From: Thauera phenolivorans
GTDB taxonomy: Bacteria; Pseudomonadota; Gammaproteobacteria; Burkholderiales; Rhodocyclaceae
Direction of reading: 5' to 3'
NCBI RefSeq assembly: GCF_001696715.1
Contig: NZ_MBFM01000003.1
Coordinates: 572,431-636,430, forward strand
Length of the DNA stretch: 64,000 nt
The notes below the pieces were generated by a model, which did not search any database, was not told the origin of the DNA, and worked only from the letters and a program-made list of their open reading frames with translations. This document shows, piece after piece, positions 18,979-32,480 of this stretch. The first letter of the stretch is position 1. Each line of letters starts with the position of its first letter. The translations under genes and the position numbers were made by a program.

Positions 18979-20541
18979 ATGAAGCCGGCTGCGATCCTGT
19001 CCCTGGCGACCCTGACGATGTCGGTTGCCGGTGCCGCGCTGGCCGCGCCCGTCTCCGAGGCGACCCGCGCGCTCTACCAGCAGCACTGCGCCGCCTGCCA
19101 TGCGGCCGACCGTCTCGGCCAGATGGGCCCGGCGCTGCTGCCGGACAACCTCGCCCGCCTGCGCCGTGAGGAGGCGCTGCGGGTGATCCGCGACGGCCGG
19201 CCTGCCACCCAGATGCCCGGCTTCGGCGAGCAGCTCGGCGAGGCCGAGATCGCCGCGCTGGCGGACTTCATCTACACCCCGGTGAGCCCGGCGCCCGACT
19301 GGTCCGACGCGGCGATCCGCGCGTCGCGCGTCGTCCACGCCGATCCCGCGCGCCTGTCGGACAAGCCGGTGTTCGACGCCGATCCGATGAACCTCTTCCT
19401 CGTCGTCGAGGGCGGCGATCACCACGTCAGCGTGCTCGACGGCGATCGCCTGGAGCCGATCCACCGCTTCCAGTCGCGCTTCGCGCTGCACGGCGGGCCG
19501 AAGTTCACCGCCGACGGCCGCTACGTCTTCTTCGGCTCGCGCGACGGCTGGATCACCAAGTACGACCTGTGGAACCTCGCGGTCGTCGCCGAGGTGCGCG
19601 CCGGCATCAACACCCGCAACGTCGCGGTGTCGCCCGACGGTCGCCATGTGGCGGTGGCGAACTACCTGCCGCACAGCCTGGTCCTGCTCGACGGCGATCT
19701 GCAGCTGATCAAGACCATCCCGGCGATCGACCAGAGCGGCAGGCACAGCTCGCGGGTTTCGGCGGTGTACGACGCGACCCCGCGCAATTCCTTCGTCGTT
19801 GCGCTCAAGGACGTGCCCGAGGTGTGGGAGATCAGCTACGACGCGCAGGCGGAGGAGATCCCGGTCGGCCTCATCCACGACTTCCGCATGCGCGAGGGCA
19901 CCTTCGTGCCGGGCTATCTCAACCCGCGGCGTACTTTGCTGCAGGACCCGCTCGACGACTTTTTCTTCACCCAGAGCTATGCCGAGCTGATGGGCGCCTC
20001 GCGCGACGGTGTCGGCCAGGTGGTGAACCTCGACGTGCGGCGCAAGATCGCCGACCTGCCGCTCGACGGCATGCCCCACCTCGGTTCGGGCATCACCTGG
20101 CAGTGGAACGGCCGCACGGTGATGGCGAGCACCAACCTGAAGGCGGCCGAGGTGACGGTGATCGACCTCGAGAGCTGGGAGGTGGTCAAGCGCATCCCGA
20201 CCCGGGGGCCGGGCTTCTTCCTGCGCAGCCATGGCGACAGCCGGCACGCCTTCGTCGATTCGATGATGAGTCCCACCGCCAAGCACATCCTGCAGGTGAT
20301 CGACAAGCAGACCCTCGAGGTGGTGAAGGAGATCGTCGGCGAACCGGGCAGGACGCTCGCCCACATCGAATTCACCCGCGACGGCCGCTACGCACTCGCC
20401 AGCCTGTGGGAGGAGGACGGCGCGGTGATCGTCTTCGACGCCGAAACGCTGGAGGAAGTGAAGCGCCTGCCGATGAGCAAGCCGGTGGGCAAGTACAACG
20501 TCTGGAACAAGATCACCCGCGACGAAGGCACCAGCCACTGA
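18979..20541 (+). CDS. nirN: Cytochrome NirN, heme d1 biosynthesis dehydrogenase
   Basis: A 520-residue periplasmic protein with a signal peptide (about 1-23), a cytochrome c domain with CAACH at residues 37-41, and an eight-bladed d1-type propeller. NirN oxidises dihydro-heme d1 to heme d1. It differs from NirF, which lacks the CXXCH, and lacks the longer N-terminal region of NirS. The propeller text (VEGGDHHVSVLDGD, GGPKFTADGRYVFFGSRDGWI) is typical of the NirS/NirN/NirF group. It is 2 bp after nirJ, so cotranscribed. Confidence 0.88.
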   Translation: MKPAAILSLATLTMSVAGAALAAPVSEATRALYQQHCAACHAADRLGQMGPALLPDNLARLRREEALRVIRDGRPATQMPGFGEQLGEAEIAALADFIYTPVSPAPDWSDAAIRASRVVHADPARLSDKPVFDADPMNLFLVVEGGDHHVSVLDGDRLEPIHRFQSRFALHGGPKFTADGRYVFFGSRDGWITKYDLWNLAVVAEVRAGINTRNVAVSPDGRHVAVANYLPHSLVLLDGDLQLIKTIPAIDQSGRHSSRVSAVYDATPRNSFVVALKDVPEVWEISYDAQAEEIPVGLIHDFRMREGTFVPGYLNPRRTLLQDPLDDFFFTQSYAELMGASRDGVGQVVNLDVRRKIADLPLDGMPHLGSGITWQWNGRTVMASTNLKAAEVTVIDLESWEVVKRIPTRGPGFFLRSHGDSRHAFVDSMMSPTAKHILQVIDKQTLEVVKEIVGEPGRTLAHIEFTRDGRYALASLWEEDGAVIVFDAETLEEVKRLPMSKPVGKYNVWNKITRDEGTSH

Positions 20542-20607: not shown

Positions 20608-21798
20608 ATGCCCCTGATTCCGCTCGACGAGCCCACCACCAAACGCATTCCGCCGGACACCTTTTCCCTGTTCGCCCTCGGCTTCCGGCCGCTCTACCTG
20701 CTCGGCGCGGCCTTCGCCGCGATTGCGATTCCCGCCTGGGTGATGGTCTTCGTCGGTGTCCTGCAGTCGCCGATTCCGGGTATCTGGTGGCACGCCCACG
20801 AGATGCTGTTCGGCTTCGGCGTGGCGATCATCGTCGGCTTCCTGTTCACCGCCGGGAAGGCCTGGACCGGTCTTCAGACACCGACCGAGGGCCCGCTCGC
20901 CGCGGTCGCCGCCCTGTGGCTGGCCGGCCGGCTGGCGATGGCCTTCGGTGGCGGCGGGGTGCTGGCCTCCGCGATCGACGTCGCCTTCCTGCCGCTGTGC
21001 GCGGCGATCTTCTTCCGCGTGCTGCTGAAAGCGGGCAGCACGCGCAACTACTTCATCGGACTGTTGCTGAGCATGCTCGGGCTGGTGAACCTCGTCTTCC
21101 ACCTGGCGCTGCACGGCGCGCTCGCGCTCGATCCGCTCGCCACCCTGCTGTTCGCGCTCGGCCTGGTGGTGGTGCTCGAATCCATCGTTGCCGGCCGGGT
21201 GGTGCCGATGTTCACCGCCAATGCGGTGCGCGGCGTGCGCCAGTGGCGCAACAAGACCCTCGACTATGCGGCGGTGATCGCCGGCGGCCTCGCGCTGCTG
21301 CTGTGGGCGATGGGCGTGGGCGGCGCGGCGGGCGCACTCTCGCTGCTGGCGGCGGCGCTGCACCTGGTGCGGGTCGGCGGCTGGAACCCCTGGGCGACAC
21401 GCAAGAACCCGCTGCTGTGGATCCTGCACCTGGCCTACCTGTGGATCCCGATCGGGCTGATCCTGATCGGACTCGGCCAGTTCGGCCTGCTGCCGCGCTC
21501 GGCCGGGGTGCACGCGCTGGCGATCGGTTCGATGGGCGGGCTGATCATCGGCATGATCACCCGCACCGCGCTCGGCCACACCGGCCGCATGCTGACCGCC
21601 GGGCCGGTGGAGACGATCGCCTACGTGCTGGTGATGAGCGCGGCGCTGGTGCGAGTACTCACCGTGAGCGCGATCCCGTCGGCAACGGTCGCCGGCATCC
21701 ACTTCGCCGCCACGGCATGGTCGCTCGCTTTCCTGCTCTACGTGTGGCGCTACTTCCCGTTCCTCAGCCGAGCCCGGGTGGACGGCAAACCGGGCTGA
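20608..21798 (+). CDS. nnrS: NnrS family protein
   Basis: A 396-residue, very hydrophobic protein with about 12 membrane helices, of the NnrS family. NnrS proteins contain heme and copper and protect cells from nitric oxide. Supporting text includes FALGFRPLYLLGAAFA at the N-terminus, WWHAHEMLFGFG (conserved His) near residue 66, and MITRTALGHTGR near residue 316. It lies 66 bp after nirN on the same strand, closing the nnrU-nirJ-nirN-nnrS group. Confidence 0.93.
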   Translation: MPLIPLDEPTTKRIPPDTFSLFALGFRPLYLLGAAFAAIAIPAWVMVFVGVLQSPIPGIWWHAHEMLFGFGVAIIVGFLFTAGKAWTGLQTPTEGPLAAVAALWLAGRLAMAFGGGGVLASAIDVAFLPLCAAIFFRVLLKAGSTRNYFIGLLLSMLGLVNLVFHLALHGALALDPLATLLFALGLVVVLESIVAGRVVPMFTANAVRGVRQWRNKTLDYAAVIAGGLALLLWAMGVGGAAGALSLLAAALHLVRVGGWNPWATRKNPLLWILHLAYLWIPIGLILIGLGQFGLLPRSAGVHALAIGSMGGLIIGMITRTALGHTGRMLTAGPVETIAYVLVMSAALVRVLTVSAIPSATVAGIHFAATAWSLAFLLYVWRYFPFLSRARVDGKPG

Positions 21799-21799
21799 T

Positions 21800-23137
21800 T
21801 CAGTCCTTCGTCGCCGGGGGCTCGGGCGCTTCCGCATCCGCGTCCTCGGGCGTCGGCTCCGGCAGGCGCGAAGCGAGGACCTTGTCGATGCGCTTGCCGT
21901 CGAGATCGACCACCTCGAGTCGCCAGCCCTGCCAGGTGGCGATGTCACCGGTGCCTGGCAGACGGCCGAGGAGCCACATCATCATGCCCGACAGGGTGTT
22001 GTACTGGCCGCGTTCCTCGTCGGGCACCGCCTTCAGTTCGAGTCGGTCCTTGAGCTCGGGAACCGGGATCAGACCGTCGAGCAGCCAGGATCCGTCCTCG
22101 CGTTGCACCGCCCACGGCTCTTCGGTGTCGCCGGGCGCGAATTCACCGGTCACCGATTCGATCAGGTCGTACAGGGTGACGATGCCCTCGACCTCGCCGT
22201 ACTCGTCCACCACGAAGACCATGTGGGTGTCGGAGGCGCGGAAGCGCTCGAGCAGTTCCATGCCCGTGAGCGACTCGGGTACGTAGACCGCCGGCTGCAG
22301 GTTCTGCTCGAGATCCACCTGCTGCTTGCGCATGCTCTGGTTGAGGATCTGCTTGGTGCCGATCACGCCGAGAATGTCGCTGGCGCCGCCGCGGCAGACC
22401 GGGAAGCGCGAATGTGCGGACTCGGCGACCACCGCGAGGTTGTCTTCGAGCGGACGGTTGACGTCGAGCCACACGATGTCGGCGCGCGGCACCATCAGCG
22501 AGGCGATGTGGCGCTCGTCGAGGCGGAACACGTTGCGCACCATGTCGTGTTCACTCTTGTCGATCACGCCCGCCTCGGAGCCTTGCTCGAGCATCGCGTG
22601 AATTTCCTCTTCGGTGAGGCTGGTGTCGCGGCTCGCGCTCTGCCCGAACAGTTTGAGCACCGCGGCGGTGGAGACGCTGAGCAGGTAAACCGCGGGGCGC
22701 GACAGGGTCTCGAGCGCCTTCACCGGCGCGGCGACGAGGCGGGCGATGTCTTCCGGGCTGGCGTTCCCGATGTGTTTGGGCACCAGCTCGCCGACCACGA
22801 TGGTGACATAGGTCAGCGCGATCACCACGATCGCGGTGGCGCCGAGTTCGCTGGTGCGCGGTGCCGCCCCGAGCTCCTGCAACCAGGCGGCGAAGGGGTC
22901 GGCGAGGATCGCCTGGCCGACGATCCCGCTGAGGATGCCGATCGAGGTGATGCCGACCTGAATCGTGGACAGGAAGCGCCGGGGCTCTTCGTTGAGCTCG
23001 AGCGCCGTCCGCGCGGCGCCGTCGCCGTTCTCGGCCAGCCGCGCCAGGCGGGAGCGCCGCGCGGCGACGAGGGCGGTTTCGGAGAGGGCGAGGAGGGCGT
23101 TGAGCGCGATGAGGGCGACCAGAATCGTGATTTCCAT
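21800..23137 (-). CDS. CNNM/CBS/CorC_HlyC transporter-associated membrane protein
   Basis: A 445-residue protein of the hemolysin-C/CNNM family, related to magnesium/cobalt efflux factors. It has a CNNM membrane domain at about residues 1-180 (four helices), a CBS pair at about 200-330 (VPRADIVWLDVNRPL, HMVFVVDEYGEVEGIVTLYD) and a CorC_HlyC domain at about 345-430. The C-terminal tail is acidic and proline-rich. It is convergent with nnrS (stops 1 bp apart) and 17 bp downstream of a paralogue. Transport function is inferred from the family only. Confidence 0.88.
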   Translation of the reverse strand: MEITILVALIALNALLALSETALVAARRSRLARLAENGDGAARTALELNEEPRRFLSTIQVGITSIGILSGIVGQAILADPFAAWLQELGAAPRTSELGATAIVVIALTYVTIVVGELVPKHIGNASPEDIARLVAAPVKALETLSRPAVYLLSVSTAAVLKLFGQSASRDTSLTEEEIHAMLEQGSEAGVIDKSEHDMVRNVFRLDERHIASLMVPRADIVWLDVNRPLEDNLAVVAESAHSRFPVCRGGASDILGVIGTKQILNQSMRKQQVDLEQNLQPAVYVPESLTGMELLERFRASDTHMVFVVDEYGEVEGIVTLYDLIESVTGEFAPGDTEEPWAVQREDGSWLLDGLIPVPELKDRLELKAVPDEERGQYNTLSGMMMWLLGRLPGTGDIATWQGWRLEVVDLDGKRIDKVLASRLPEPTPEDADAEAPEPPATKD

Positions 23138-23154
23138 GGCGGCGTCGTGCTTGC

Positions 23155-24390
23155 TTACTTGCGGGGAGCTACGTCGTTGGCGGTCGCGGCGGCGGGCGCG
23201 GCCTCGTTCTCGGGCGGATCGACCTCGAGGCCGAGAACCTTCGCGCGGCGGCGCCAGAGCTGGCGGGCGAGGCTTTGCATGTCTTCCACCCGGTCGCCCT
23301 CGTCGACGATCTCGATGCCGAGCAGGGTCTCGACCACGTCCTCGAGGGTGACCACGCCCTTGGTCTCGCCGTACTCGCCGATGACCACCGCGATGTGGTG
23401 GCGCTTGTCGAGCAGCAATTCGAGCAGGGTCGACAAGGGCGTCGCGCCGGCGACCGCGAGGATCTCGCGCCGCAGCGCGGAGAGCGGGCGGCTGCCGGTG
23501 CCTTGGGTCTGGGCGATCAGGAGATCTTCGCGGAGCACGAAGCCGGTGACCGCGTCGAGGCTGTCGGCGTAGATCGGGATGCGCGAAAAGGGCGGGCTCA
23601 TCCGCGTTTGCAGCGCCGCCGCGATCGTCATGGTTTCGGGCAGTGCGACGACGACCGTCCGCGGCGTCATGATGTCCTGCGCGCGCAGCGAACCGAAGCG
23701 GAACAGGTTGCGGATGATGCGCGACTCGCGATCGTTGATGTGGCCCGCCTCCTGGCCGATGTTGGCCATCGCGATGAACTCGTCGCGGCTGAAGACGTGC
23801 ACCGCACGGCCGCGTGCGATCAGCTTGGTGAGAAGCTCGGCGACCACGATCAGCGGATACATCAGCTTGATCAGCAGGTTCACATACCACGCGGTGATTC
23901 CGGTGAGGCCGCGCCAGTACACCGCGCCCAGGGTCTTGGGCACGATCTCCGACAGGAACAGGATCAGCAGGGTCATCACCGTCGAGAAAACGCCGAACCA
24001 GGCGCTGCCGAAGACCGCGGTGGCCTTGGCGCCTGCGCCGATCGCGCCCGCCGTGTGGGCGATGGTGTTGAGCGTGAGGATGGCAGCGAGCGAGCGGTCG
24101 ATGTTCTCGCCCTTCAGCTTCTTGAGCAGGGCGGCGCGCCGCGGGTCGGTGGTCTCGAGGTTGCCGACGAAGGAGGGGGTGATGCTGAGCAGGACGGCTT
24201 CCGCCACCGAGCACATGAAGGACAGCACGAGGGCGAGCAACACGTACGCGACGAGCAGGATGAAATCGCTGCTCGTGGTGTCCACAGCGAGAACGGGGTC
24301 GTCGGCCGAGGCCAGCGCAGGCGCGAGGAGGAGCGTGAGGCCGAGAAAGGAAGAGGTGAAGCGGTAAGGTCGGGGTTCAGGGTCGGTCAT
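23155..24390 (-). CDS. CNNM domain membrane protein (HlyC/CorC family paralogue)
   Basis: A 411-residue paralogue of the downstream gene. A cleavable signal or first helix (about 10-30) is followed by a CNNM domain (VLLALVLSFMCSVAEAVLLS, FLSEIVPKTLGA) and CBS repeats (IMTPRTVVVALPE, HHIAVVIGEYGETKGVVTLEDVVE). It lacks a clear CorC_HlyC domain, unlike its neighbour, and has a charged tail. The two form a 17-bp-spaced pair. They sit between nnrS and the nor operon but have no evident denitrification role. Confidence 0.85.
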   Translation of the reverse strand: MTDPEPRPYRFTSSFLGLTLLLAPALASADDPVLAVDTTSSDFILLVAYVLLALVLSFMCSVAEAVLLSITPSFVGNLETTDPRRAALLKKLKGENIDRSLAAILTLNTIAHTAGAIGAGAKATAVFGSAWFGVFSTVMTLLILFLSEIVPKTLGAVYWRGLTGITAWYVNLLIKLMYPLIVVAELLTKLIARGRAVHVFSRDEFIAMANIGQEAGHINDRESRIIRNLFRFGSLRAQDIMTPRTVVVALPETMTIAAALQTRMSPPFSRIPIYADSLDAVTGFVLREDLLIAQTQGTGSRPLSALRREILAVAGATPLSTLLELLLDKRHHIAVVIGEYGETKGVVTLEDVVETLLGIEIVDEGDRVEDMQSLARQLWRRRAKVLGLEVDPPENEAAPAAATANDVAPRK

Positions 24391-24507: not shown

Positions 24508-25269
24508 TCAGGCAAGGCTCTGGCGCAGACGCTCGAGGTCGGGAATGTGGATGCTGCGGCCCTCGACCTCGATCAGGCGTGCCGTGCTGAGCTCGTTGAG
24601 GATGCGCGAGAAATGCTCCTGGGTGAGGTTGAGCCGCGAGGCGATCGTGCCCTTGGCGGTGGGCAGGCGCACCGTGACGCGGCCGTTTTCCGCCGGCATG
24701 GCGCCCGCGATGTCCTTCTCGCCCAACAGGTAGCCCACCACGCGGTCGCGGCCGGAGCGCAGCGAATAGCTCTCGACGTCGGCCATCAGGTGGTGCAGGC
24801 GCTGGGCGAGCCCGGCAACGATCTGGCGCGAGAACAGCGGATCGCGCGCCATCTCGTCGAACACCACCGCCTTCGCGATGTGAAGCAGGGAGGCCTCGGT
24901 GAGTGCCTGGGCCATCACCACGTAGGGCTTGTCCATGAACATCACCGCCTCGCCGAAGGACTGGCCGGGGCGCAGGATCTCCACGACCTTCTCGTTGCCT
25001 TCGGGCGAGATGAAGGCGAGCTTGATCTGGCCGCCGAGGATCAGATGGAAGCCGACGCAGGGGTCGCCGCGGTGGAACAGGATCTCGCCCTTGGGCACCT
25101 TCAGTTCGCGCACGCCGTGCGCGAGCCGCGCCAGCTCGCGCGGCGCGAGGACGTGGAACAGCGGCGTCTTCTGCAGGAGCTGGCAGATGCGGGCGACGTC
25201 CGGCGGCAACGGGGCGTCGGGTTCGGTGGCGCTCTGGGTGGTGGCGCAGGGGATGTCGCAGGGATTCAT
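24508..25269 (-). CDS. dnr: Crp/Fnr-family regulator, Dnr/Nnr-type
   Basis: A 253-residue regulator with a cNMP-like sensor domain (about 40-150), dimerisation helix and a winged helix-turn-helix. The recognition helix TQEHFSRI keeps the E-x-x-S-R residues by which FNR proteins read TTGAT half-sites, matching the boxes in this window. Cysteines occur at 4, 8, 29 and 71, not in the FNR [4Fe-4S] pattern, so an NO-responsive Dnr/Nnr-like role is more likely than FNR itself. It is the last gene of the nor operon, 4 bp after norD. The ATG at 25267-25269 fits that spacing. The symbol is by context and family. Confidence 0.75.
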   Translation of the reverse strand: MNPCDIPCATTQSATEPDAPLPPDVARICQLLQKTPLFHVLAPRELARLAHGVRELKVPKGEILFHRGDPCVGFHLILGGQIKLAFISPEGNEKVVEILRPGQSFGEAVMFMDKPYVVMAQALTEASLLHIAKAVVFDEMARDPLFSRQIVAGLAQRLHHLMADVESYSLRSGRDRVVGYLLGEKDIAGAMPAENGRVTVRLPTAKGTIASRLNLTQEHFSRILNELSTARLIEVEGRSIHIPDLERLRQSLA

Positions 25270-25273
25270 GGCC

Positions 25274-27175
25274 TCATCTCGTGAGTTGCGCATAGAACAG
25301 CGGCAGGCGGGCGGGCAACTCGTCGGGCTTGCGGATCACGGCGAAGCCGGCGGGTCCGAACAGGTGTGGCAGGTAGCTCGCGCCCTCGCGATCGATCGTC
25401 ACGCAGAAGGGCACGATGCCGCGGTTGCGCGCCTCGATCACTGCCACCCGGGTGTCCTCGATGCCGTAGCGGCCATCGTAGAGGTCGAGGTCGTTGGGCT
25501 TGCCGTCGGACAGGATCAGCAGGATGCGGCGCGCGGCGTCCTGCTTGTCGAGCATCGAGGTGGCGTGGCGGATCGCGGCGCCGAGGCGCGTGTAGTAGCC
25601 GGGCTTGATCGCCATCACGCGGCCGCGCACGCGGTCGTCGAAGCGCTGGTCGAAGTCCTTCAGGCGGTGGAAGCGCACGTTGGCGCGCTTGACCGAGGAG
25701 AAGCCGCACAGCGCGAAGCGGTCGCCGGTGGCGCTGAGGGCCTCGCCGAACAGCAGCAAGCTGTCGCGGATGACATCGATGACGCGGGCCTCGGACGAGA
25801 TCCAGGCGTCGGTCGACAGCGAGAGGTCGGCGAGCGCGAGGCAGGCGAGATCGCGCTCGCGTTTTTCCAGCGACAGGTAGAGCTGGTCCGACGGATGTCG
25901 GCCGCAGGCGCGGTCGGTGGCGGCGCGCACCATCGCGTCGACGTCGAGTTCGCTGCCGTCGGTCTGCGCCTTGAGCCAGCGCCGCGCCGGCTGCAGCGCG
26001 GCGAACTGGCGGTGCAACCGCTTCGCAGTGCGGCGCAGGTGGGGCGGCAGCGGCACCGGCGCGGCGCGCGGGTCGTCCGCGGCGGCGACCAGCTCGTTCA
26101 GGCGCACGTAGTCCTCGCGCAGCAGGTTCTTGCGGTAGTCCCATTCGGGCAGCGGGATGCCGGGACCGAGCACGGTGTCGTCCTCGGCGGCGGACGGCAG
26201 ATCGAGGTCGAAACGGACCTTGGAGGCGACCCGCTCCTCGTCGCGGGTGATCGCGAGCTGTTCGAGATTGAGTGCGGCGTCGGCGGCGTTGTCGTCGGGC
26301 TCGTCGTCGAGGTTGCGCTTGACTTTCAGGAACTCGGCCACCGAGAGCAGGCTCTCGGCGCGGAAGGGCAGGATGAGGCCGAGCTTTTCTTTTGGTTTGT
26401 CGACCCGCTCGACGCGGTGGGCGTCGCGTTCGCTGTCGCGATCCTGTGGCCGCGTGGGCCGGGTGGATTCCGCGCCCGCGGCGCCGGACGAAGCGGGCGC
26501 GGCGGGTGCGGTGGGATCATCGAGTCCGCCCAGCCACAACAGCACCGGCGTCGCTGGGGCGGCCTTGGGCGGGAGCGGGGGCAGGCCGGCAACGCTGCCG
26601 GGGGCCTCGAGCGCGCGGCGGACCGCACGCTCGCGTTCGGCCTCGGCGGGGGGGAGCCGTGCCGGGTCGGGGCGCGCGGCGAGGGTGGCGGCGAGCAGGC
26701 GCTGGTAGCGCTCGCGCAGGCCGGGCCACAGCTGCAGCGCCTTCACGGTGGCGCGCTGGTTGCGCGCCAGTTCGAGGCTGGCGGGGTCGGTCGTGCCGTC
26801 CGTCGCCGGCGTGTCGCCCTCGAGCGGCTGGGCGTGGGCGGCGGCGAGCGCGGCCAGCCACAGGTAGAGATCGCGGTTGAGGCCGCGCTCGGGGAAGACA
26901 TCGAGTGAGGGTGGCAGGCGCAGGGTGGCGACATCCATGCGCGCGCGGGCAATGCGTTCATCCGAGCCGGCGATGCGCGACAGCAGGCTGCGGCGCGCGC
27001 CGTGGGCGTCGGCGGTGGCGGCCGCGACGCGCAGGCCGGGGTCGCCGCCGAGGGCCCGGAAGAACACGCCGGCGGTCCGCTCGACCTCCTTCAGTTTTAC
27101 CGCGGCCTGAGGGTAGTGACCCCCCGCGGCGCGGGTGATCAGACGGTGCCAGAGCTTGCCGACGACTTCTTCCAT
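25274..27175 (-). CDS. norD: Nitric oxide reductase accessory protein NorD
   Basis: A 633-residue protein with a C-terminal von Willebrand factor A domain (about 430-630). The MIDAS motif DLSLS is present in CLALADLSLSTDAW, and ILSDGKPNDLDLYDGRYGIEDTRVA follows. NorD works with the AAA+ ATPase NorQ to activate NorCB, most likely by inserting the non-heme iron. Middle residues 200-290 are low-complexity and charged. Length matches NorD of Paracoccus and relatives. It precedes the regulator gene by 4 bp. Confidence 0.93.
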   Translation of the reverse strand: MEEVVGKLWHRLITRAAGGHYPQAAVKLKEVERTAGVFFRALGGDPGLRVAAATADAHGARRSLLSRIAGSDERIARARMDVATLRLPPSLDVFPERGLNRDLYLWLAALAAAHAQPLEGDTPATDGTTDPASLELARNQRATVKALQLWPGLRERYQRLLAATLAARPDPARLPPAEAERERAVRRALEAPGSVAGLPPLPPKAAPATPVLLWLGGLDDPTAPAAPASSGAAGAESTRPTRPQDRDSERDAHRVERVDKPKEKLGLILPFRAESLLSVAEFLKVKRNLDDEPDDNAADAALNLEQLAITRDEERVASKVRFDLDLPSAAEDDTVLGPGIPLPEWDYRKNLLREDYVRLNELVAAADDPRAAPVPLPPHLRRTAKRLHRQFAALQPARRWLKAQTDGSELDVDAMVRAATDRACGRHPSDQLYLSLEKRERDLACLALADLSLSTDAWISSEARVIDVIRDSLLLFGEALSATGDRFALCGFSSVKRANVRFHRLKDFDQRFDDRVRGRVMAIKPGYYTRLGAAIRHATSMLDKQDAARRILLILSDGKPNDLDLYDGRYGIEDTRVAVIEARNRGIVPFCVTIDREGASYLPHLFGPAGFAVIRKPDELPARLPLFYAQLTR

Positions 27176-27193: not shown

Positions 27194-28213
27194 CTATTGC
27201 CTGCGGATGGCACTGAAGCCGGCCTCGTTCTGGCGGGCAGCCTCGTCGCTCGCCCAGCGCAGCAGCGGGCCCTGCGGGTTGTCGCGCTGCGTCTCGGCGC
27301 AGGCGTCGATGCACTGCGCGCACTGGGTGCAGGTGAACATGTGGCGCTTGATGTTGCGCGGGGTGAGCCGCATCGGGCAGACCGCATCGCAGGCGGCCTG
27401 GCGGTCGGGCAGACAGTCGGTGCAGTCGCGACCGCGCTGGCGGGCGAAACCGACCACCATCGCGTCGCGGTTGCTCATCCAGGACAGGCTCTGGAACAGG
27501 CCCACCGCGCACACGTAGCGGCAGAACAGGTGGCGGGCGAAGAGGAACTCGAGGCTCAGCACCACGGTGGCGGCACCGATGAAGACCGCTTGGTTGCGGG
27601 TGAGCTCGCCGGCGAAGAGGTTGCCGTACACCTCGGCCGGTGGCAGCAGATAGGTCAGCAGCACCACCGCCCACAGGAAGGCGAAACCGACCGCCGCCGG
27701 CACGACGCCGAACCACCAGCGGGCATCGACGCGGGCGGGCGTGCCGTCGGGCTTCCAGGGTGGCAGGGATTTCTTCTCCCATACGCTGGGTTTGCCGATC
27801 GCGCGCACGAGCAGGCGGTTGATCGTTTCCACCACCGAGAAGTGCGGGCATAGCCAGCCGCAGTAGAGCCGACCCCATTTCCACGCCGCCCAAAGGAAGA
27901 GGGCCGCGCCGCCGAGCAGCGGCAGGAACAGGCGCAGGCCGATGTTCGCGGCCGCCTCGCCCGCGCCGATGCGACCGGCCAGGAAGTCGTCGAGGCCGAG
28001 CCGCCATTCCATGCCGAGCAGCCACGCATGGTCGGCGTGTAGGTCATAGCGGAACAGGTCGAACACGGGCGCCAGCACGAAGAGCAGGAAGAACCCGGCC
28101 TGGAACAGCCGTCGGCGACGCTGCAGGCCGCGCGGCGCCACGTTCTCGGCGCGGGCGATGGGAATGATCCGCCGCGTGGCGCCCGTGTCGCAGACGACGC
28201 CGGCCTCAGCCAT
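27194..28213 (-). CDS. Membrane-bound polyferredoxin-like 4Fe-4S protein in the nor operon
   Basis: A 339-residue protein with about five membrane helices, the NapH/CcoG-type motif YCGWLCPHFSVVE, and two cytoplasmic cysteine clusters at the C-terminus (CTDCLPDRQAACDAVCP and CTQCAQCIDAC). It should carry two [4Fe-4S] clusters and pass electrons across or at the membrane. The ATG at 28211-28213 overlaps the stop of the upstream gene by 8 bp, indicating translational coupling. Its partner is unknown; position between norQ and norD suggests a role in NO reductase assembly or redox control. It is shorter than NosR and lacks its FMN domain. Confidence 0.8.
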   Translation of the reverse strand: MAEAGVVCDTGATRRIIPIARAENVAPRGLQRRRRLFQAGFFLLFVLAPVFDLFRYDLHADHAWLLGMEWRLGLDDFLAGRIGAGEAAANIGLRLFLPLLGGAALFLWAAWKWGRLYCGWLCPHFSVVETINRLLVRAIGKPSVWEKKSLPPWKPDGTPARVDARWWFGVVPAAVGFAFLWAVVLLTYLLPPAEVYGNLFAGELTRNQAVFIGAATVVLSLEFLFARHLFCRYVCAVGLFQSLSWMSNRDAMVVGFARQRGRDCTDCLPDRQAACDAVCPMRLTPRNIKRHMFTCTQCAQCIDACAETQRDNPQGPLLRWASDEAARQNEAGFSAIRRQ

Positions 28214-28616
28214 GGTCTTCGCGCGGGCCGAGAATCGGATAGCGCCAGGTGCGGCCATTGATCGCCCGCGACAGGCCGGCGACTCCGAGCAGAATCAGCG
28301 CCGAGTGCACGAAGGTGAAGTACAGCACGCCGATCACCCAGGACCAGGGATTGTCGAAGCCGCCGAGCAGGAAGATGCCGACGCTGATCGTCACCAGCAG
28401 CAGGCCGCCCCACACGCAGGTGATGGTGGTCTGCCGGAGGTGGTTGCGCACCAGCGGGTCGGCATCGTTCCGATGCTTGAGGTAGAGCACGACGAGCGCG
28501 AGGAAGGCCAGGCCGGGCAGCAGCATCAGGTTGATCAGGAACAGGGCCTCGGCCGCGATCGCGATCGGCGGACCGGGCATGACGTGCTTCAGGGGGTCGG
28601 GGCGCTCGAGGCTCAT
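28206..28616 (-). CDS. Hypothetical four-helix membrane protein in the nor operon
   Basis: A 136-residue protein with about four hydrophobic segments (residues 15-45, 60-85, 92-115 and a short fourth). I do not recognise a named family with certainty. Charged motifs YLKHRNDADPLVRNHLRQTT and NGRTWRYPILGPRED are the most distinctive. It overlaps the Fe-S protein gene by 8 bp and lies 28 bp after norQ, so it is certainly part of the nor transcript. A role in assembly of NorCB or its Fe-S neighbour is an inference from context. Confidence 0.75.
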   Translation of the reverse strand: MSLERPDPLKHVMPGPPIAIAAEALFLINLMLLPGLAFLALVVLYLKHRNDADPLVRNHLRQTTITCVWGGLLLVTISVGIFLLGGFDNPWSWVIGVLYFTFVHSALILLGVAGLSRAINGRTWRYPILGPREDHG

Positions 28617-28644: not shown

Positions 28645-29445
28645 TCAATGGCCGAAAGTGGCGCTGATGACTTCCATCAGGGCCTCGGCGACTTCCGGGT
28701 CGTCGGTCAGACTCTCGACGATGGTCACGCGGCAGGCGGGGACCGGCGCCATGCCATCCTTCACCAGCAGGGCGGCGTAGATCAGCAGTCGGGTGCTGGC
28801 GGCTTCCTCGAGGTCGCGGTCCTTGAGGCTGCGCAACGCGCCTGCGATCGCGACCAGGCGGCGGGCGAGGTCGGGATTGCAGCCGGTCTCGCCGATCAGG
28901 ATCGCCTCCTCGCGCTCGGGGGCGGGGAAGTCGAAGCGCAGGCTGACGAAACGCTGACGGGTCGAGGGCTTCATGCCCTTGAGCAGGTTCTGGTAGCCGG
29001 GGTTGTAGGACACCACCAGCATGAAGGAGGGGGGCGCCTCGAGCAGTTCGCCGGTGCGATCGATCGGCAGGATGCGACGGTCGTCTGCGAGCGGGTGCAG
29101 CACGACCGTGGTGTCCTTGCGCGCCTCGACCACTTCGTCGAGGTAGCAGATTCCGCCTTCGCGCACCGCGCGCGTCAGCGGGCCGTCACACCACACGGTC
29201 TGGCCGTCGCCGATCAGGTGGCGGCCGACGAGGTCGGAGGCGGTGAGGTCGTCGTGGCAGGCGACGGTGTGCAGGGGCAGTCCGAGGCGCGCCGCCATGT
29301 GGGCGACGAAGCGGGTCTTGCCGCAGCCGGTGGGCCCCTTGATCAGCAGCGGCAGGCGGTTCTTCCAGGCATGCTCGAAGACGTCGACCTCGTCGCCGTG
29401 GGCCTGATAGAAGGGAATGTCTAGATTCGGCGTGTCGGGTTTCAT
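28645..29445 (-). CDS. norQ: Nitric oxide reductase activation ATPase NorQ (CbbQ/NirQ/NorQ, AAA+)
   Basis: A 266-residue MoxR-type AAA+ ATPase. Walker A GPTGCGKT is at residues 37-44, Walker B ICYLDEVVEA near residue 97, and the C-terminal CbbQ region follows. With NorD it activates the NO reductase. The ATG at 29443-29445 shares one base with the stop of norF (TGATG), so the genes are translationally coupled. Length is normal. Confidence 0.95.
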   Translation of the reverse strand: MKPDTPNLDIPFYQAHGDEVDVFEHAWKNRLPLLIKGPTGCGKTRFVAHMAARLGLPLHTVACHDDLTASDLVGRHLIGDGQTVWCDGPLTRAVREGGICYLDEVVEARKDTTVVLHPLADDRRILPIDRTGELLEAPPSFMLVVSYNPGYQNLLKGMKPSTRQRFVSLRFDFPAPEREEAILIGETGCNPDLARRLVAIAGALRSLKDRDLEEAASTRLLIYAALLVKDGMAPVPACRVTIVESLTDDPEVAEALMEVISATFGH

Positions 29446-29747
29446 CAAGCCAGTGCCTTCCAGTATGCGATGCCGATGACCGCCCACACGAGCGCCATCC
29501 AGCCGAGGATCAGCGCACGCCACAGCAGCGGACCATGACGCAACGCCATGAAATCGAGAATGATGACGCTGCCTTTCCAGATCGAGATGACGGCGAGCAG
29601 GCCGACGATGGCGGTGCCGGTGGCGCCGGTCTGGCCGACCAGCCAGGTCGCGAGGGTGGCGAGGATCAGCGCGATCCACTGGAACGTGGCGCGTCGCGGC
29701 GTGCCGTGGGTCTGGGGGCCGTGGTCTGGGGTGGTCTGCTTTTGCAT
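29445..29747 (-). CDS. norF: NorF-like small membrane protein (cytochrome oxidase subunit IV-like)
   Basis: A 100-residue protein with three predicted helices (about 22-42, 45-65 and 77-98), resembling the cytochrome c oxidase subunit IV / NorF family. In Paracoccus, NorE and NorF support full NO reductase activity. It lies between norE and norQ, overlaps norQ by one base and follows norE by 9 bp. The symbol rests on position plus topology, since sequences in this family are poorly conserved. Confidence 0.75.
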   Translation of the reverse strand: MQKQTTPDHGPQTHGTPRRATFQWIALILATLATWLVGQTGATGTAIVGLLAVISIWKGSVIILDFMALRHGPLLWRALILGWMALVWAVIGIAYWKALA

Positions 29748-29756
29748 GGTTCGCGC

Positions 29757-30353
29757 TCAGTGGATCACGTAGACGAGGGGGAAGAGCACCAGCCACACCA
29801 GGTCGACCATGTGCCAGTAGGCGGCGCCGGTTTCCAAGCCGTTCATGTCGCCGAGGCGATAGCGCCCGGCGCGCACGTTCTTCCACAGCGCGATCAGGAT
29901 CACCAGACCGAGGATGACGTGCATGAAATGGAAGAAGGTCAGCGACAGGTAGAACATGTGAAAGGGGCTGCTCGACAGGCTGATGTCGGCCTGGAAGGCG
30001 TGCGCGTATTCGAACATCTTGACCGCCAGGAAGCCGGTGCCGCAGGCGATCGCGGCTGCAAGCCAGTGCCCGGCGATACGGTCGGCAGCGTGTTCGGCGG
30101 CCTGTACCGCGCGCACGACGAAGTAGCCCGCGGTGAGCAGCAACACCGTGTTGAGTGCGCCGGCGTTGCGGCTGAGCGCCAACTGTTCGGCGTCGAACAA
30201 CGCGACGTTGCTTGCCCGCGTGAACGCGTAGGCGGCGAAGAAGACGCCGAACGCGAGCAGTTCCGCGAGGATGAAGATCCAGATCGCGAGGTCGCCCGCG
30301 AGGCGGGGCGCATGCGCCGGCTGCGGCGCGGCGGGGGAGTGCGTGGTGTTCAT
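29757..30353 (-). CDS. norE: NorE, cytochrome c oxidase subunit III-like protein
   Basis: A 198-residue membrane protein with about five helices, of the heme-copper oxidase subunit III family. GDLAIWIFILAELLAFGVFF opens the first helix, and HMFYLSLTFFHFMHVILGLV and GLETGAAYWHMVDLVWL are family-typical. It is not a core subunit of NorCB but helps its activity. The ATG at 30351-30353 has no Shine-Dalgarno, and a DNR-like box is centred 42 bp upstream, which raises the chance of a leaderless message. Confidence 0.88.
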   Translation of the reverse strand: MNTTHSPAAPQPAHAPRLAGDLAIWIFILAELLAFGVFFAAYAFTRASNVALFDAEQLALSRNAGALNTVLLLTAGYFVVRAVQAAEHAADRIAGHWLAAAIACGTGFLAVKMFEYAHAFQADISLSSSPFHMFYLSLTFFHFMHVILGLVILIALWKNVRAGRYRLGDMNGLETGAAYWHMVDLVWLVLFPLVYVIH

Positions 30354-30511: not shown

Positions 30512-32354
<1,843 letters not shown>

Positions 32355-32437: not shown

Positions 32438-32480
32438 ATCTTAGGTTTGCAGCACGCCGCCCCACCATGATCTGAATCAA
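32438..32480 (-). promoter_or_regulatory. FNR/DNR-dependent promoter of norCB
   Basis: On the minus strand TTGATTCAGATCAT (32480-32467) matches TTGAT-N4-ATCAA except for the last base. A TAAGAT -10-like hexamer reads at 32443-32438. The box centre is 41.5 bp from the implied start at about 32432, the class II spacing. The leader before norC would be about 78 nt. Confidence 0.8.

Follow-up and report, generated by a model that had tools for sequence, protein, structure and literature searches.

What do two additional membrane protein genes contribute to an operon for nitric oxide reduction? The question is raised by a 64,000-nucleotide stretch of Thauera phenolivorans DNA (the window), in which two genes, here called orfA and orfB, stand between norQ and norD. 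NorQ and NorD are needed for insertion of FeB into the cytochrome-c-dependent NO reductase (cNOR), as stated in the available part of PMC9976466. An earlier note on the same DNA had suggested that the two extra genes act together and that a membrane Fe-S protein might provide electrons for metal insertion into NorB.

Two extra genes in the nor operon

The window contains a minus-strand array with the order norC-norB-norE-norF-norQ-orfA-orfB-norD, followed by a Crp/FNR-family gene. The cytochrome c subunit is encoded by norC (31929..32354, start set at the ATG of MSGVFTK) and the catalytic subunit of cNOR by norB (30512..31894), both with the expected Pfam domain. By Pfam, norE (29757..30353; start codon chosen by eye, the ATG of MNTTHSP) is COX3-like and norF (29445..29747) encodes a COX4_pro-like small membrane protein. 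The norQ product (28645..29445) is a MoxR-type AAA+ ATPase with the CbbQ/NirQ/NorQ C-terminal domain (CbbQ_C, Pfam). There follow orfA (28206..28616), encoding a DUF4870-like small membrane protein of 136 aa with three predicted transmembrane (TM) helices, and orfB (27194..28213), encoding a CcoG/NapH-related membrane polyferredoxin of 339 aa with four. The Pfam VWA-domain protein is encoded by norD (25274..27175), whose end is overlapped by the gene for the Crp/FNR-family regulator (24508..25293).

The genes are closely packed: 28 bp separate the norQ stop from the orfA start and 18 bp the orfB stop from the norD start, and orfA and orfB overlap by 8 bp, ATGGCTGA, which contains the orfB start codon and the orfA stop TGA. 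The earlier note was right about the coordinates, strand and order of the pair and about its 8-bp overlap between norQ and norD. It was also right to place both genes outside the classical norCBQDEF set; they are two extra genes beside the six-gene cNOR cluster described in the available text of PMC13036017.

An FNR/Dnr-like box, TTGATTCAGATCAT (32467..32480, minus strand, one mismatch), is found some 110 bp ahead of the norC ATG; with six such matches in the window against 1.9 expected, it is weak by itself. A domain search identified an NnrS gene at 20608-21798(+). Upstream of nnrS, at 18979-20541(+), is a gene for a cytochrome-c-plus-propeller protein that we take to resemble NirN. Given nnrS and the NirN-like gene, the window is part of a wider denitrification region. 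Between nnrS and the Crp/FNR gene, positions 21800-24390(-) presumably encode two adjacent CNNM/CorC-like membrane proteins.

OrfB and its relation to CcoG and NapH

OrfB passes the Pfam model Fer4_5 (45 bits, cut-off 22). Against the CcoG model TIGR02745 it scores 58.4 bits, far under the cut-off of 316.7, and against the NapH model TIGR02163 45.3 bits, far under 213. The label of NapH/CcoG-like polyferredoxin given in the earlier note therefore holds as a statement of kinship, but not of membership, since both family cut-offs are missed. On sequence grounds, orfB is kin to CcoG and NapH, yet a family of its own. All 36 family members match TIGR02163, and 14 of the 36 give weaker matches to NosR. 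Two ready identifications were considered and rejected: orfB is not the CcoG of this genome, a genuine CcoG being encoded on contig C8 (118848-120152, 524.8 bits), and it is not an ordinary NapH, as judged by its score.

The same division emerged from the class sample (369 genomes). At E < 1e-30, orfB was found in 42 genomes, mostly at 45-64% identity, some of these matches being pieces of broken genes or contig ends. The remaining 19 matches (E <= 1e-15) were CcoG-like, with 26-30% identity and frames of 437-491 aa. These searches thus set orfB and the CcoG-like proteins sharply apart as two classes.

The orfB sequence carries the motifs C118xxxC122PH124, H228xFC231xxxC235, C264xxC267...C275xxxC279PM and C295xxC298xxC301xxxC305. 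The 12 cysteines together with H124 and H228, the histidines that adjoin the membrane CxxxC motifs, are invariant in 36/36 aligned relatives. Among 157 distinct full-length orfB sequences, the CxxxCPH, RHxFC, second CxxxC and second ferredoxin motifs are kept in 156 and the first ferredoxin motif in 154; one sequence each in L163 and L007 fails the pattern of the latter, and the orfB of L204, with an interrupted reading frame, fails all five.

Hydropathy and charge predict four TM helices, with both termini and the Fe-S part in the cytoplasm. The topology rests on these two criteria because the AlphaFold2 model of orfB is of low confidence (mean pLDDT 67.4, below 50 in the Fe-S part). Foldseek gave no match to this model in the PDB at E <= 0.001, and a sequence search of solved structures returned no significant relative of orfA or orfB.

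OrfA, a frequent partner

The AlphaFold2 model of orfA (mean pLDDT 87.2) consists of three helices (15-48, 54-83 and 90-119), and the hydropathy profile of the family has three peaks. A protein of four helices, as proposed in the earlier note, was accordingly rejected. By charge, the first end of orfA is predicted to lie outside and the last inside. Two residues, H59 and H104, are invariant in the family. The window protein scores 12.1 bits against DUF4870 (PF09685), for which the cut-off is 25; 27 of 42 family members match this model weakly, the best at E 3.4e-5. A Foldseek search of the PDB with the orfA model gave no match at E <= 0.001.

The orfA stop lies within -60 to +30 bp of the orfB start in 71 of 74 measured loci from the best 80 of at least 586 relatives, a count in which the start nearest the orfA stop was chosen, which favours tight spacing; of these 80 loci, five had no orfA match and one more was not measured. 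In the order sample, 23 genomes have both genes, six orfA only and eight orfB only. One of the six orfA-only genomes (G122) is cut by a contig end inside orfA and was counted as lacking orfB; an orfA match in G209 with no nor genes nearby (E 9.6e-4) was discarded, so that this sample counts 29 genomes with orfA. Outside the class of the window, orfB mostly stands without orfA. The suggestion that the two act together thus draws support from the 23 genomes of the order with the pair, but has against it the single-gene genomes and the solitary orfB genes outside the class. OrfA is less constant than orfB, and is a frequent partner. Because the two are separable and orfB mostly stands alone outside the class, we regard orfB as the core member.

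orfB occurs with close cNorB

The orfA/orfB arrangement is more than chance, since it recurs in many genomes, with orfB identity down to about 43-45%. The order sample comprised 300 genomes, with orfB in 31 and a NorB at least 73% identical in 47; 30 had both, 17 NorB only, one orfB only and 252 neither (Fisher p 5e-28, kinship ignored). The single genome with orfB and no NorB match (G159) is represented by an assembly of 680 contigs, in which norQ-orfA-orfB lies at the end of a contig. None of 25 genomes of the order with divergent NorB homologues (38-64% identity) contained orfB, and two such loci that were inspected (L072, L073) have norCB-norQ-norD without orfA/orfB.

Similar figures were obtained for the class sample, where a NorB at least 69% identical was present in 56 genomes; 40 of these also had orfB, leaving 16 with NorB only, two with orfB only and 311 with neither. 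Of the two genomes with orfB and no NorB match, G421 has its norB cut by a contig end and G506 is 87% complete. OrfB was absent from all five class genomes with NorB at 57-62% identity, as listed at a search threshold of E 1e-150, which excludes more distant NorB homologues. The phylum sample (339 genomes) added 14 orfB genomes, with identities of 45-56%; 12 of the 14 belong to other classes. Genomes of named species gave at least 594 pattern matches, 586 of them encoding relatives. The best 80 of these were kept, mostly from Thauera, Azoarcus, Aromatoleum, Azonexus, Dechloromonas, Zoogloea and their kin.

In the order and class samples the orfB family is nor-specific and almost confined to genomes with a close cNorB. 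It co-occurs with cNorB and is absent without it, as an accessory gene would be. Close cNorB does occur without orfB, in 17/47 genomes of the order (among them G122, with its contig-end cut) and 16/56 of the class. Since orfB is missing from so many of these genomes, FeB loading, and cNOR itself, can work without it. Both states are found within single genera (G172/G205 and G061/G013).

A NorQ tree of 94 rows shows 11 changes of the orfB label, at least seven of them forced by starred branches, compared with 18.4 in shuffles. OrfB is therefore clustered on the tree and yet has been repeatedly gained or lost, G122 being a false minus. The rows are mostly orfB-bearing genomes from outside the order, so that label counts are not frequencies, and gain and loss are not separable on this tree. 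Of the 16 class genomes with NorB and without orfB, the stretches taken in were those of G325, G516 and G500, and that of G516 had no norQ.

orfB lies beside norQ and norD

With orfA allowed in between, norQ and/or norD is the same-strand neighbour of orfB in 82 of 85 genomes examined: 31/31 from the order, 37/40 from the class (40 of 41 genomes taken in, G600 left out) and 14/14 from the phylum. In the exceptions, orfB is inverted inside the nor cluster (G662), lies on a 3.6-kb contig (G397), or has no other nor genes in its 13-kb stretch (G396), a genome that does have norB and norD. The same neighbours are found in 72 of the best 80 of at least 586 named relatives. In the other eight loci, from Zoogloea and relatives, orfB is apart from norQ/norD; orfA adjoins it in 7/8, and cNorB and norD are each present in 7/8 of these genomes. 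The survey thus bears out the association of orfB with norQ/norD anticipated in the earlier note. The note had held that a wide occurrence away from nor genes would speak against a role in NO reduction; this was not seen, and even the unlinked Zoogloea-type orfB is mostly accompanied by cNorB.

Genomes with dispersed nor genes separate the neighbours of orfB from one another. In G061, the block norQ-orfA-orfB-norD is intact and lies 28 kb from norCB; in G673, orfA-orfB-norD is 45 kb away from norCBEFQ; and G630 has orfB-norD with neither norQ nor norCB in a 13-kb stretch. The norCB and norD stretches of G669 are separate as well. Two genomes without orfB, G150 and G020, have norQ-orfA-norD more than 1 Mb from norCBEF. 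In none of these dispersed arrangements did orfB accompany norCB at a distance from both norQ and norD. G218 carries a second orfB (L050:8743-9744(-), 54% identical to that of the window) behind norE-norF, without norQ/norD and beside export-type genes.

No consistent substitute for orfB was seen in the orfB-less clusters L059-L061, L064, L069, L052 and L053 or in norQ-norD gaps. In G077, a bacterioferritin-type gene (Ferritin, 121.8 bits; L055:9001-9468(+)) occupies the orfB position in the orfA-norD gap. Hemerythrin-domain genes adjoin orfB within the norQ-norD interval in G145 and G421 (L045:9755-10210(+) and L103:1173-1670(-); 58.2 and 48.2 bits). These iron-protein neighbours are three anecdotes with no estimate of chance. 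The orfA-norD gap of G020 (L051:7918-8420(+)) holds what we take to be two small toxin-antitoxin-like genes on the opposite strand.

A CopD-like membrane gene follows orfB in four Denitromonas/Zoogloea-type loci, L176:8016-8496, L181:7960-8445, L191:7948-8433 and the Zoogloea locus L188:8060-8551 (all plus strand, starts approximate), and is a possible third member of the orfA/orfB set. In Azoarcus taiwanensis (L180), norCB-norQ-orfA-orfB is split from norE-norF-orfA2-norD by about 4.5 kb with cytochrome-type genes. Here orfA2 (L180:13397-13888(+)) is a DUF4870 paralogue beside norD, and passes the cut-off of that model (28.1 versus 25 bits). At many loci nnrS lies in the nor cluster. Near the nor clusters of L099, L132 and L135 are proteins of 506-531 aa with CGWLCP/CRYxCP cores, presumably NosR-like.

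A possible role in FeB loading

Tentatively, and with slightly less than even confidence, we infer from the gene association, the motifs and the predicted topology that orfB, often partnered by orfA, is a dedicated accessory factor of cNOR on the NorQ/NorD side, that is, in maturation, where it would supply electrons during FeB loading. Gene context supports a link of orfB with the maturation genes; its part in redox chemistry we infer. OrfB would take electrons from a donor, either quinol or a cytosolic reductant, and pass them through two putative [4Fe-4S] clusters to a metal site formed by the two membrane CxxxC motifs with H124 and H228 at the cytoplasmic membrane face. With NorQD keeping the FeB channel of NorB open, it would thereby deliver iron as Fe(II) or maintain it in that state, or else release iron from Fe(III) or nitrosyl complexes. 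OrfB would then do for iron what CcoG does for copper in reducing it for CuB of the cbb3 oxidase, and orfA may act as a small scaffold in the membrane for orfB or NorD.

According to the available sections of PMC7558416, CcoG carries two [4Fe-4S] clusters as well as two copper sites; it reduces Cu(II) but does not reduce Fe(III), and less CuB-containing CcoN is present when it is lost. NorD has been modelled as binding acidic residues where NorB helix VII ends on the cytoplasmic side (PMC9976466, part available). It is this redox part of CcoG in CuB supply, taken with the cytoplasmic site of NorQD action, that leads us to propose orfB in the corresponding part for FeB.

In favour of a maturation role we count the distribution of orfB, its norQ/norD neighbourhood, the dispersed loci, the invariant cysteines and histidines, the topology by charge and the iron-protein neighbours, as well as FeB loading at the cytoplasmic end of helix VII as given in the accessible text of PMC9976466. 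Against it stand the cNOR genomes without orfB, the label changes on the NorQ tree, the second orfB of G218 without norQD, the Zoogloea-type loci with orfA-orfB apart from norD, and the failure of CcoG to reduce Fe(III). Neighbourhood, moreover, is not function, the orfB model is poor in its Fe-S part, and the fold searches were empty. A further counterweight is that the cNOR of P. denitrificans, whose six-gene cluster lacks orfB, contained FeB when produced from pNOREX in E. coli JM109, as reported in the available text of PMC13036017. Taken with the many orfB-less operons, this means that any need for orfB would depend on conditions or lineage. A short homologue of CcoG, YccM, is present in E. 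coli (PMC7558416, part available), so the pNOREX result is not a clean zero for orfB-type proteins.

We consider a more specific proposal somewhat unlikely. In it, orfB would serve FeB loading as a dedicated reductase of Fe(III) or nitrosyl-iron; it would descend from the CcoG/NapH fold by adaptation to iron, histidines by the membrane CxxxC motifs having switched the metal from copper to iron. If the proposal is true, NorB metal insertion would be the work of a three-part machine of ATPase, VWA adaptor and redox donor, and lineages without orfB would use a general cellular reductant.

The kinship with NapH (36/36 family members matching TIGR02163) and the weaker NosR matches (14/36) would also suit an electron-input module that passes electrons from quinol to NorC/NorB during turnover. 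NorC, however, is periplasmic, whereas orfB is without a periplasmic redox domain and ends after its predicted cytoplasmic ferredoxin part. No partner of the NapG, NapC or FMN-domain kind appeared in the norQ-norD interval, and the dispersed loci, in which orfB never accompanies norCB away from norQ and norD, also argue against such a module, which we regard as improbable.

We think it rather improbable that orfB and orfA protect or repair, reducing NO-damaged (nitrosylated) iron in cNOR or the NorQD pathway and taking no part in first assembly. A conditional helper of this kind would show the nor-specific, patchy distribution that we observe, and the hemerythrin neighbours in two genomes and the nnrS gene in the cluster at many loci point the same way, but a place next to norQ/norD is at least equally compatible with assembly. 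A general function in metal or haem handling, CcoG-like for copper or CopD-like, with shared anaerobic regulation as the sole reason for the genes' place in the nor operon, could draw on the CcoG kinship of orfB and on the CopD-like gene after orfB in several Denitromonas/Zoogloea-type loci. It seems very improbable, given that the genome has a separate full CcoG (524.8 bits) and that orfB hardly occurs without close cNorB, even where unlinked.

A maturation role would bear on several published observations. In the available text of PMC9976466, the Fe(II) for FeB is attributed to free cytosolic iron or to iron chaperones/ferritin, delivery via NorQD is considered unlikely and the source is left open; as a nor-specific membrane Fe-S protein encoded next to norQ/norD in many Pseudomonadota, orfB offers a concrete candidate for the redox step of this supply. 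It might also bear on another result in that text, the re-activation of FeB-less cNOR by only 2-2.5-fold in crude extracts. The "six-gene" nor cluster seems not to be the general case, so that heterologous expression of cNOR from organisms of the Thauera, Dechloromonas or Azospira type may need orfB. OrfB and its frequent small partner, found in many denitrifying bacteria, look like an overlooked part of the NorQ/NorD iron-loading machinery, and perhaps its electron source.

A full-text search of open-licence PMC papers found none naming or studying orfA or orfB. Both are members of known superfamilies; we found no description in this literature of the nor-specific orfB family or of its histidine signature. 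In its available part, the 2026 NorQD structure paper (PMC13036017) counts six genes in the cNOR cluster and describes norE/norF as unknown. The NorDQEBC genes of Dechloromonas aromatica are listed as VIMSS582097 and 582100-582103, with a gap in the numbers (PMC2907700), and in PMC10390337 the numbering of both organisms leaves out one tag from norQ to norD. The skipped numbers, as they appear in the available parts of these two papers, suggest that orfA/orfB were passed over.

Comparison with known systems

The closest parallel is CcoG/RdxA/FixG (TIGR02745), the cupric reductase of cbb3 assembly. The two proteins share a core of CxxxCP near the membrane, a second CxxxC and two four-cysteine ferredoxin motifs, so that orfB has both the membrane CxxxC pair and the Fe-S motifs of CcoG, with altered spacing in the first ferredoxin motif. 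Identity to the CcoG of this genome is 26% over about 250 aa. Each protein sits with assembly genes of a haem-copper-superfamily enzyme, orfB in the nor locus and CcoG in cco. OrfB differs in its length of 339 aa, ending shortly after the second ferredoxin motif with no C-terminal extension, TM helix or Ig-like domain. From CcoG to orfB, CPQ becomes CPH, RE-Q becomes RHxF and the second CP becomes CA; at the orfB histidine positions, the CcoG of this genome has CPQ and REQVC (Gln; Glu-Gln).

NapH/MauN (TIGR02163) shares with orfB the layout of a small four-TM polyferredoxin. Unlike these proteins, orfB has no nap or mau neighbours in the clusters examined and carries histidines beside its cysteine motifs. 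The likeness to NosR/NirI lies in the CGWLCP and CRYxCP core, reflected in weak matches for 14/36 members, and orfB has no FMN-binding periplasmic domain such as theirs. Compared with the classical norCBQDEF cluster of P. denitrificans, the window contains all six genes and two more between norQ and norD.
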